Source: Gemmatimonadota bacterium
GTDB lineage: Bacteria > Gemmatimonadota > Gemmatimonadetes > Gemmatimonadales > GWC2-71-9
NCBI GenBank assembly: GCA_003222195.1
Contig: QHVB01000042.1
Coordinates: 1 to 52,300 of the forward strand
DNA length: 52,300 nt
Direction: 5' to 3'
The notes beneath the pieces were generated by a model. The model did not search any database. It worked only from the letters and a program-made list of their open reading frames with translations, and was not told the DNA's origin. The first letter of the stretch is position 1. Each line of letters opens with the position of its first letter. Made by a program: the position numbers and the translations under genes. This document shows, one piece after another, positions 19,397 to 26,139 of this stretch.

Positions 19397-20209
19397 ATGC
19401 ACTGTCGCGCCCTGATCGTCCTCACACTTGTGCTTCCCGCGGTGCTGGCAGGCCAGTCGCCGCCCACTCCGGAGTTGCCCAATGCCGTGATGCTGCAATT
19501 CATCCGGTTTGCCGACATCTTCGGGAGCCGGCTCGTCGCGGCCTTCGATTCCATCCCTGCAGCCCGATACGACTACCGGCCTACCCCGTCACAGCAGACC
19601 ATCGGCTATATCGCCCAACACCTCGAGGATGCGAACTACAGCCTGTGTGAGCGCCTCGGGGTCCTGAAGCACCCCAGGACTCCAAAGGATTCGTTGTCGG
19701 ACACCGTCAAAGCGCAGTGGCCGAAGGACACGCTCGTCGAACGTCTCGAGGCCTCCCTCCGCTTCTGCGACACAGCCATGGAGCGCGTGGCGAAACTCGA
19801 GTCGCCGGCGCTTGCGAGCACCTTGCTCGCGTTCGAGACCGATTTGGCAGAGCACTACAGTCAGATCTCGAGCTACATGCGACTGCTCGGCATGGTGCCG
19901 CCTTCGGCGCTGCCGCAGAGGGCGCGCGTGGCGATCGAGTTGCCGGCATCGGCGCTGTCACCATACGTCGGCGTCTACGAGCTCGCGTCAGGCCTGGAGC
20001 TCGACGTCACGCTGCAGAACGGGGCGCTCCATATCAGATCGAGCATAGGCAACGCCGCGGTGCAACTTTGGCCCGAGAGCAACAACGACTTCTTCGCCAA
20101 GGGCGTGGACGCACAAGTCACCTTTGTTCGCGATGCGAGTGGAGCGGTATCGGGCCTCGTCCTCCACCAGTATGGCCGCGACCGGCCGGCGAAGAAACGT
20201 CGATCGTGA
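19397..20209 (+). CDS. Secreted DinB-superfamily protein
   Basis: 270 residues from ATG 19397, with GGAG six bases upstream and a signal peptide (MHCRALIVLTLVLPAVLAGQ). Residues ~30-180 form a four-helix DinB-like bundle: FDSIPAARYDYRPTPSQQTIGYIAQHLEDANY, then RFCDTAMERVAKLES, and AEHYSQISSYMRLLGMVPPSA at the position of the usual HxxxHRGQ helix. The last His triad is only partly kept (EHYSQ), so metal binding is doubtful. The C-terminal ~90 residues are a separate strand-rich domain (YVGVYELASGLELDVTLQNG, ALHIRSS). It starts 75 bp beyond the last attC and is not itself followed by one. Confidence 0.7.
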   Translation: MHCRALIVLTLVLPAVLAGQSPPTPELPNAVMLQFIRFADIFGSRLVAAFDSIPAARYDYRPTPSQQTIGYIAQHLEDANYSLCERLGVLKHPRTPKDSLSDTVKAQWPKDTLVERLEASLRFCDTAMERVAKLESPALASTLLAFETDLAEHYSQISSYMRLLGMVPPSALPQRARVAIELPASALSPYVGVYELASGLELDVTLQNGALHIRSSIGNAAVQLWPESNNDFFAKGVDAQVTFVRDASGAVSGLVLHQYGRDRPAKKRRS

Positions 20210-24091: not shown

Positions 24092-24634
24092 ATGACCTCC
24101 TCCCCACCAAGACCGCTCATCGTTCGCCTGCTCAGTGGGATCGCCGGTGTCGTCATCTGCCTCGTTGCGCTGGTCGGATCGCTCGGCGCCGCGCTCGGCG
24201 CCCCCTTCGGGATGTATCTCGTGGCGCGCTGGGCCAGCCGTCGCGAGCGCCAGCCCAACCGCATCGCGTCGCTGTTCGGCGCGGTGGTGGCGTCCTCCGT
24301 CCTCGCCATGCTGATCTGGGGGATGGTATTCCTGCTGATGCCGCGTCCCACCCAGGACCAGCTCAACTCGGCGGTGACAGAGGCGCAGCGCCAGCCGACG
24401 AAGTTACCCGAGTGGTACACACGACTCTTCCCCCAAGCCGCCCGCACCGATTCGGTGAGTCAGCGCCTGATGCGGTCGCCGGGGTTCGTGAGAGCCACCC
24501 TGATCATGGGCGCCGTCATCACGGGACTGTTCCTTGGAATCATCGGTGGATCGTTGACCTGGTTGGCATCCATGCTGCTGAATCTCGCCAGGTCGGCCCC
24601 GGCCCCGGCCCCCGCACCGGTCGAATACAGTTGA
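24092..24634 (+). CDS. Three-pass membrane protein, unknown
   Basis: 180 residues. Three hydrophobic segments are visible: LLSGIAGVVICLVALVGSLG (possibly two short helices including LGAPFGMYLVA), LFGAVVASSVLAMLIWGMVFLL, and ATLIMGAVITGLFLGIIGGSLTWL. A charged loop of ~60 residues separates the last two. The C-terminus is alanine/proline-rich. Its TGA overlaps the TTG of the next gene. No family recognised. Confidence 0.6.
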   Translation: MTSSPPRPLIVRLLSGIAGVVICLVALVGSLGAALGAPFGMYLVARWASRRERQPNRIASLFGAVVASSVLAMLIWGMVFLLMPRPTQDQLNSAVTEAQRQPTKLPEWYTRLFPQAARTDSVSQRLMRSPGFVRATLIMGAVITGLFLGIIGGSLTWLASMLLNLARSAPAPAPAPVEYS

Positions 24635-24978
24635 TCCCCAACATCGGGCCGCGTGGCCAGCGGCAGCGGTTGCGGCTGGGGATCATCGCCGTGGCGGCGG
24701 CCGGAGTGCTCACGGTGTTGCTCTTCCTTTTCGACGCCCCGCGGCTCTGGCGGTTCGCCTGCTTTCTCCCCCTGTGGATCGGCGCACTTGGCTTCCTACA
24801 GGCGTTCGACAAAACCTGAGTCCGCCTCGCTGCGCGCGGTCTGCGCGACCTGGACACGGGACCTGAACCCATCAGCGCCGCCGTTGAGCTCGCACAAATA
24901 CGCGGACAGGCGCGGCTCGTTCACCTGAAGTCGATCGTGAGCGCCGCGATTTTGACGGCGCTTCTCGTTCTCCTGTAA
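24631..24978 (+). CDS. Candidate selenoprotein: small membrane protein with in-frame TGA at codon 63
   Basis: A TTG at 24631 overlaps the previous stop. Residues 1-62 read LIPNIGPRGQRQRLRLGIIA ... WIGALGFLQAFDKT, with two membrane segments (about 16-34 and 41-57). Codon 63 (24817-24819) is TGA. The frame then stays open for 52 codons with normal GC-rich codon use (VRLAARGLRDLDTGPEPISA ... SIVSAAILTALLVLL), adding a third hydrophobic segment, and stops at TAA 24976-24978, just before the kinase. In relatives as I recall them, the KT-x-V position is cysteine. A GGUCU-loop hairpin sits 18 nt after the TGA, as in E. coli fdhF. Readthrough would give 115 residues. Without it, a 62-residue truncated protein is made. 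The family function is unknown to me. Confidence 0.55.
24817..24855 (+). promoter_or_regulatory. Candidate bacterial SECIS hairpin
   Basis: Directly after the TGA (24817-24819), bases 24833-24837 (CGCGC) pair with 24843-24847 (GCGCG) around the apical loop GGTCT (24838-24842). An outer GTCC (24820-24823) can pair with GGAC (24852-24855). The GGUCU loop and the 18-nt distance from the UGA match the E. coli formate-dehydrogenase element bound by SelB. The internal bulge differs, so the assignment remains a prediction. Confidence 0.5.
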
Positions 24979-24993
24979 GTTTGTTGGACCGTC

Positions 24994-26139
24994 ATGACAC
25001 GACCAGTAACGCGCCTGAAGACGCGACGCCCGTCGCGCGCCGCCGAGCCTGCTCCGGCCGGCCCGGTGCTGCCCACACTCTACAGCAATGAGACGGGGCG
25101 GTCGTATCGGCTGGATCGGCTGATCGGCAAAGGCGGATTTGGCGAGATCTATCTCGCCACCCCGAGCTCTGCCGGAGCGATTCCCCCGCGCGTCTGCGTC
25201 AAGATCAGTTACCGGATCGCGGGATGGCTGCGCGAGGCGTACTTCGCGGAGCTGCTCGCGCGCCAGGCCCGCGCGCTCCGCGTGTTCGACCGGTTCGTCC
25301 AGGTCGAGTCGACGACCACGAGATACTGCCTCGTCATGGAGTACGCCGAGCATGGCGACCTGAGCGCGTGGCTGACGGCGCAGGGCGGACAGCCCGAGAG
25401 ATTCGTGCGACACGAGATCGCCGCCATTCTCGAGACGCTGGATGTGCTGCATCGCGGGCAGGCATTGCACCGCGACTTGACGCCGTTCAACGTCTTCGTC
25501 TGCGAGAACGAGATCCTGAAACTCGGAGACTTCGGGATCGCGACGCACCAGGCGAGCCGGCGCGGCGTCACGGCCGACGCGTTCAACCCGCTGGGTGCGC
25601 CGACCGAGATCGCGTGGGGGAAGGTGCGCAAGTGGCAGCAGCGCGACGACGTGTATCAGGTCGGCCAGCTCATCGCGATGCTGCTCCGCGGCGACGTGCA
25701 CAGCCCGATGCGGAGCCGCGACGTCCGCCGGCTGCCGTGCAGCGACCATCTCAAAGAGGTGATTCATCGCTGCCTCGGCGCACGGGGGAAGCGCTATCAG
25801 TCGGCCGGCGAGATGATCGACGCGCTCAACAACCCGCCCAAGCAGATCCACAAAGGCGTGGTCAAAAGTCTCAAGGGACGGCGTGTGTCCTTCACCGGAT
25901 TCCTGAACCGGCCGCGCCGCGATGCGATCGCGGCGGCCAAGCGATCCGGCGCCGTCTTCCAGGCGAGTCCCGGACCTTCGACCGACATCCTGGTGCGCGG
26001 GCGGCCCAATGCACTCCAGGTGGCGGGCAAGGATGGCGGGCTCAAGCTGATGGAAATCAAACGCCTGGCCGCTAAGGGGCACCGCGTCACGGTCATTGGC
26101 GAGGCGCAGTTCTGGAAGCTGGTCTCGCGGAGAAGCTGA
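24994..26139 (+). CDS. Ser/Thr protein kinase fused to a BRCT domain
   Basis: 381 residues. The kinase spans about 38-285: glycine loop GKGGFG at 45-50, an ATP lysine in VCVKIS (K70), the catalytic loop HRDLTPFNVFV (D161, N166) and DFG at 179-181. All key residues are present. A BRCT domain follows at about 293-377 (LKGRRVSFTGFL, AAKRSGAVFQASPGPSTDILV, KLMEIKRLAAKGHRVTVIGEAQFW). In bacteria BRCT domains are mostly known from NAD-dependent DNA ligase and mediate binding to phosphopeptides or DNA ends. A kinase carrying its own BRCT suggests phosphorylation-dependent recruitment, perhaps in DNA damage. No membrane segment is present. It follows the selenoprotein candidate by 15 bp. Confidence 0.9.
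   Translation: MTRPVTRLKTRRPSRAAEPAPAGPVLPTLYSNETGRSYRLDRLIGKGGFGEIYLATPSSAGAIPPRVCVKISYRIAGWLREAYFAELLARQARALRVFDRFVQVESTTTRYCLVMEYAEHGDLSAWLTAQGGQPERFVRHEIAAILETLDVLHRGQALHRDLTPFNVFVCENEILKLGDFGIATHQASRRGVTADAFNPLGAPTEIAWGKVRKWQQRDDVYQVGQLIAMLLRGDVHSPMRSRDVRRLPCSDHLKEVIHRCLGARGKRYQSAGEMIDALNNPPKQIHKGVVKSLKGRRVSFTGFLNRPRRDAIAAAKRSGAVFQASPGPSTDILVRGRPNALQVAGKDGGLKLMEIKRLAAKGHRVTVIGEAQFWKLVSRRS

Follow-up and report, generated by a model that had tools for sequence, protein, structure and literature searches.

The window, as we call the whole stretch of DNA that was analysed, comprises 52,300 nucleotides from a Gemmatimonadota bacterium. On its plus strand, a reading frame at 24631..24978 begins with TTG, contains a single in-frame TGA as codon 63 (24817..24819), continues for 52 further codons and ends with the TAA at 24976-24978; the next gene begins with the ATG at 24994. 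We checked these coordinates, on which an earlier note had based the proposal of a candidate selenoprotein, and they are correct. Read with selenocysteine (Sec) at codon 63, the gene codes for 115 residues. The TTG is a probable start, inferred from a methionine at the same place in the homologue L012 and from a NIG motif three residues later. It overlaps the TGA stop codon (TTGA) of an upstream open reading frame for a membrane protein of 180 amino acids (24092..24634, plus strand), which is given here for context only and is not kept beside the genes of the relatives. Directly downstream, 24994-26139 codes for a Ser/Thr protein kinase, which shows weak BRCT-like similarity at its C-terminus (E 0.0087). 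The neighbours vary among the relatives, and no conserved neighbourhood or operon was seen around the selenoprotein gene when the gene lists were inspected by eye.

Downstream of the TGA lies a hairpin (24833..24847, plus strand) that consists of a 5 bp stem, formed by CGCGC (24833-24837) and GCGCG (24843-24847), and the apical loop GGTCT (24838-24842). The stem begins 13 nt and the loop 18 nt after the TGA, and the hairpin alone has an energy of −7.4 kcal/mol, the 50-nt stretch one of −14.9. The published model of the bacterial SECIS element (bSECIS) specifies a loop of 3–9 nt with a G within its first two positions, a distance of 16–37 nt from the UGA and a stem of at least 4 bp (PMC13188914). 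The hairpin of the window, with a loop of 5 nt at 18 nt from the UGA and 5 bp, fits this model. Its likeness to the SECIS of Escherichia coli fdhF (formate dehydrogenase H), likewise put forward earlier, is confirmed by comparison with the fdhF sequence: there a GGUCU apical loop also starts exactly 18 nt past the UGA, whereas the stem sequence is another one and the protein is unrelated.

The presence of any hairpin alone means little, because 58 of the 162 TGAs of the window with long open frames on either side (both strands) have a hairpin compatible with the model. A GGTC loop is much rarer and was found at only two of these 162 TGAs, one of them being the TGA of codon 63. The other one (minus strand of the window, reverse-complement position 20203, 27 nt) was judged to be a probable chance match. 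From the window sequence alone, the energy of the hairpin is no better than that obtained by synonymous recoding (p 0.23), and on this ground we rejected the significance of the hairpin in a single sequence as evidence. It is the comparison with the relatives, not the window alone, that lifts the hairpin far beyond chance.

A first search in 101 genomes of the order gave seven matches; each of them contains a single in-frame TGA, and this always lies in the motif KT-TGA-[V/I]. Among 395 Gemmatimonadota genomes 34 clear matches were found, 30 with one TGA and four with the cysteine codon TGC at the same position. Two further phyla were searched with a profile after a match had been found in each: the Acidobacteriota (396 genomes) have five clear members, all with Cys, and the Planctomycetota (392 genomes) have 15 TGA members and three Cys members. 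In addition, a scan of reference genome contigs revealed one Cys member in Melghirimyces (Bacillota), and a tblastn search of plasmids with a Cys homologue as query gave no match. In total, the family comprises 45 TGA members from two phyla and 13 Cys members from four phyla with the motif KT[Sec/Cys]V; the Cys homologues mentioned in the earlier note are real. In a 43-row alignment Asn4, Arg13 and Sec/Cys63 are invariant, and Cys is the sole alternative residue at the Sec63 site. Parsimony places about 11 changes between Sec and Cys on the tree, at least three of which are forced by well-supported branches, and one Cys member (L063) is nested within a Sec clade. As the inner branches are mostly poorly supported, we do not claim a number of Sec or Cys origins.

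The most obvious alternative is that the TGA is a real stop codon, such that the protein would have 62 residues and the downstream frame would be a product of chance or a separate small gene. Chance open frames are indeed common in the GC-rich DNA of the window, and the upstream neighbour also stops at a TGA. However, the sequence following the TGA is kept in the 45 TGA homologues and is fused in frame in the 13 Cys homologues, and no homologue ending at residue 62 was found among the relatives searched. Furthermore, in most pairs dN lies well under dS on both sides of the TGA; for L009/L060, to give one example, dN and dS are 0.35 and 2.39 before it and 0.28 and 1.37 after it. Judged from these substitution rates, purifying selection acts on the protein part encoded after the TGA; the residues kept there include RG.RD.D.G, Q93 and A94. 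In the ungapped comparison of L066/L070 and of L086/L087 the distal part is not conserved, which we attribute to gaps, an explanation that is unchecked. The comparison with the relatives refutes the real stop, and we regard it as very improbable.

The hairpin itself is also conserved. In the 21 TGA members from Gemmatimonadota with the RG motif, the codon choice at positions +5 to +9, which form the hairpin, departs from expectation: Ser is encoded by TCG in 15/16 cases, Arg by CGC in 21/21, Leu by CTG in 17/17 and the second Arg by CGC in 20/21, and the rare codon GGT is used for Gly in 20/21 with an expected frequency of 0.15 (p 5.7e-16). These p values treat the sequences as independent, which is not fully true; neighbouring codons of equally conserved residues serve as control, and the codons tested elsewhere near the TGA are close to expectation with a few at p 0.01–0.05. 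Hairpins with 5 bp or more are present at this place in 44 of the 45 TGA genes, whereas synonymous recoding would yield 11.7 (z −13.1). The same test applied to the Cys genes gave 4 of 13 versus 1.7 expected (z −1.7). In a set of 18 members both partners have changed in three pairs of the stem, among them a doubly synonymous change from G-C to U-A in L077, and the covariation score of the set is higher than in any of 500 shuffles and in the slid controls. This set was picked by hand and has mostly the register with the 5-nt loop; it speaks for the pairing without being an unbiased sample. In a second clade (LG type; L078, L080, L081, L082, L084, L086, L087 and L015) the hairpin register is shifted and an invariant Gly codon GGG replaces GGT.

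As to the selenocysteine machinery, which the earlier note had named as a check, the draft genome of the bacterium (G000) contains a tRNA-Sec with UCA anticodon (77.8 bits), SelA and a SelD (L029, G000:C17:261399-262331) that is itself Sec-encoded, with an in-frame TGA that is followed at 32 nt by a hairpin with a GGTCT loop. The close relatives G023 and G069, which are congeners, possess SelB, but no SelB was found in the draft. The estimated completeness of the draft is 99.8%, yet the congeners' segment of ∼13 kb holding selB (L088/L089) is nearly absent. Since this segment has only scattered matches in the draft, mainly to Clp paralogues, the missing SelB suggests an assembly gap; without a closed genome a loss is not excluded. 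A Clp match on C85 was considered as a guide to SelB and was rejected as a ClpC-type paralogue with other neighbours. Within the phylum, tRNA-Sec was detected in 28 of the 30 genomes that carry a TGA member as compared to 249 of the 365 others (p 0.003), and the two TGA-carrying drafts G259 and G324 have no tRNA-Sec at the threshold used.

The failure to find SelB in the draft could be taken to mean that the UGA is recoded otherwise, by near-cognate readthrough or by reassignment of the codon, and is not read as selenocysteine. Against this, the SECIS, the tRNA-Sec, SelA and the Sec-encoded SelD are all present, UGA is a stop codon elsewhere in the window and only Cys alternates at the site. 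Codon reassignment is rejected by the multi-genome comparison, and recoding to another amino acid retains hardly any probability. A pseudogene or a sequencing error, that is a Cys codon TGC mutated or misread to TGA, is only one base away from the codon of the homologues and conceivable in a draft metagenome assembly, but is refuted for the family by the same TGA in dozens of independent assemblies from two phyla and by a hairpin tied to the TGA state, so that practically nothing is left of it.

We conclude with high confidence that 24631-24978 encodes an integral membrane selenoprotein of 115 residues with Sec63, as had been suspected, although there is no experimental evidence for selenium. 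SelB with GTP and Sec-tRNA(Sec) would bind to the GGUCU hairpin just 3′ of UGA63, selenocysteine would be inserted and termination avoided, and translation would then continue through a small cytosolic β-hairpin segment and a third helix. This recoding part is strongly supported; what follows on the function is inference only.

An AlphaFold2 model computed from 14 rows has a pLDDT of 97.2 and a pTM of 0.85 and includes the part after the UGA in the confident fold. The model predicts a membrane protein of three helices, in which Sec sits where helix 2 ends. Helix 1 (residues 7–33; 24649..24729, plus strand) would be the first membrane segment, helix 2 (residues 38–60; 24742..24810, plus strand) the second one ending just before Sec63, and helix 3 (residues 84–114; 24880..24972, plus strand), which contains the conserved Q93 and A94, is coded wholly after the UGA. 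In addition, there is a short helix (64–68) and a small β-hairpin (71–80). According to the positive-inside rule, an Arg-rich segment faces the cytosol. Sec63 is predicted to lie on the cytosolic side of the membrane, probably, because the Arg-rich N-terminus is on the same face of the model. No other Cys is found in the core of 24 of the 45 Sec members, and 18 of the 45 have a Cys within the four residues before Asn4, which would share the face with Sec63.

Neither a sequence search of the PDB nor fold searches gave a convincing match, the top structural rows being generic helical bundles. The membrane domain of YgaP is absent from the structural match list, an absence that excludes nothing. 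Scanning 43 members against Pfam and NCBIfam we found no convincing family, only scattered weak matches, of which PF11127 (YgaP-like_TM) is the commonest (5 of the 43 members, best E 0.012, below the gathering cut-off). The Sec family resembles the YgaP membrane domain in the Arg/Gly-rich start of helix 1, in the two-helix hairpin and in the Cys position where helix 2 ends (C159 in E. coli YgaP). Unlike YgaP it has no rhodanese domain (115 residues, no match), and it has an extra β-hairpin and third helix as well as Sec. A direct profile comparison between the Sec family and YgaP gave no match.

Small two-helix proteins with an N-terminal CNID motif and with GWCAVRAMGFKT near the C-terminus were observed in planctomycetes (L135, L136, L138, L139 and L140). 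The profile of the planctomycete intermediates (MxCNID...GWCAVRAMGFKTP) matches the Sec family with 97.6% and an E-value of 3e-12. Their match to PF11127 is below the cut-off (best E 0.0004) and their profile match to YgaP is weak, and their Cys aligns with C159 of E. coli YgaP. As far as such profile comparisons allow, the planctomycete CNID proteins may form a bridge between the Sec family and the YgaP-like membrane domains. A distant tie between the Sec family and the membrane domain of YgaP is a lead and not a membership, and Sec63 probably corresponds in position to the YgaP Cys with which helix 2 ends. For the YgaP membrane domain, thiocyanate export has been proposed, and C159 lies in a helix that tightens on binding (PMC4730233).

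Our preferred suggestion for the function is tentative, as it is based on weak homology and topology only: Sec63 may be a reactive selenol for thiol/selenol redox chemistry or for a sulfur (persulfide) relay at the membrane surface. The solitary selenol would act as the reactive centre, with Asn4 and Arg13, both invariant, on its side of the membrane, and Cys would do the same job in the Cys homologues. A membrane peroxidase-like selenoenzyme, which reduces lipid- or quinone-derived peroxides and is re-reduced by a soluble thiol, would agree with the single Sec at the membrane interface of the model and with the fact that redox enzymes make up most of the known selenoproteins to which a role has been assigned (PMC13188914). 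As neither a peroxidase motif or fold similarity nor a conserved partner gene is seen, we consider this role possible but somewhat less likely. Sec63 might also bind metal or metalloid ions such as mercury, copper or arsenic for transport across the membrane without any redox or sulfur relay. Sec-containing membrane transporters are known, namely the catalogued mercuric transport protein and the SO_0444 Cu/Zn transporter (PMC13188914), and the protein of the model is likewise small, has several membrane helices and carries a selenol that stands alone. On the contrary, there is no CC or CxxC pair, more than half of the Sec members have no other core Cys as stated above, no metal-resistance neighbours were recognised by eye in the gene lists and no family match was obtained; transport is possible but again less likely. 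Returning to the selenol at the membrane surface, we hold with no more than even confidence that the family represents old uncatalogued three-helix membrane selenoenzymes with a lone surface selenol that lacks a resolving core Cys, with either an unrecognised fold or a remodelled YgaP-type domain and with repeated exchange of Sec and Cys in several phyla.

The selenoprotein family cannot be matched to a described one, in agreement with what the earlier note had supposed. A recent catalogue lists 119 prokaryotic selenoprotein families (Zhang et al. 2026, PMC13188914, Table 1), among which there is no such membrane family and no entry with a KTU motif. The Sec family shares the UGA-encoded Sec, the bSECIS and the Cys homologues with the catalogued families, but the NCBIfam and Pfam models that are used for many of them give no match. 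The Sec-containing mercuric transport protein (PF02411) and the SO_0444 transporter (NF033936) are also membrane selenoproteins; these, however, have C/SxxU or UxC pairs and family models of their own, which do not match the Sec family. The new families described with deep-Sep (PMC12013277) gave no match by name. A prior annotation as a nameless selenoprotein is not excluded, as only open-access papers were searched and supplementary tables, for example those of PMC4807772, were outside the search.

Catalogues of selenoproteins serve to tell which bacteria depend on selenium and for what reason. Here, a gene that is easily annotated as a fragment of 62 residues, or missed, appears to code, in at least two phyla, for a complete selenoprotein of the membrane. 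A thioredoxin-like fold is found in the majority of characterised selenoproteins (PMC13188914). How a lone Sec works in a small membrane protein without a close Cys partner is a chemical question that is directly testable, and the Sec and Cys versions found side by side are ready experimental pairs. In the open-access literature searched, no title or abstract reports selenoproteins of Gemmatimonadota, a large Sec-using group that is barely mentioned there. The phylum is broadly Sec-using, as tRNA-Sec is above the threshold in 277 of the 395 Gemmatimonadota genomes.
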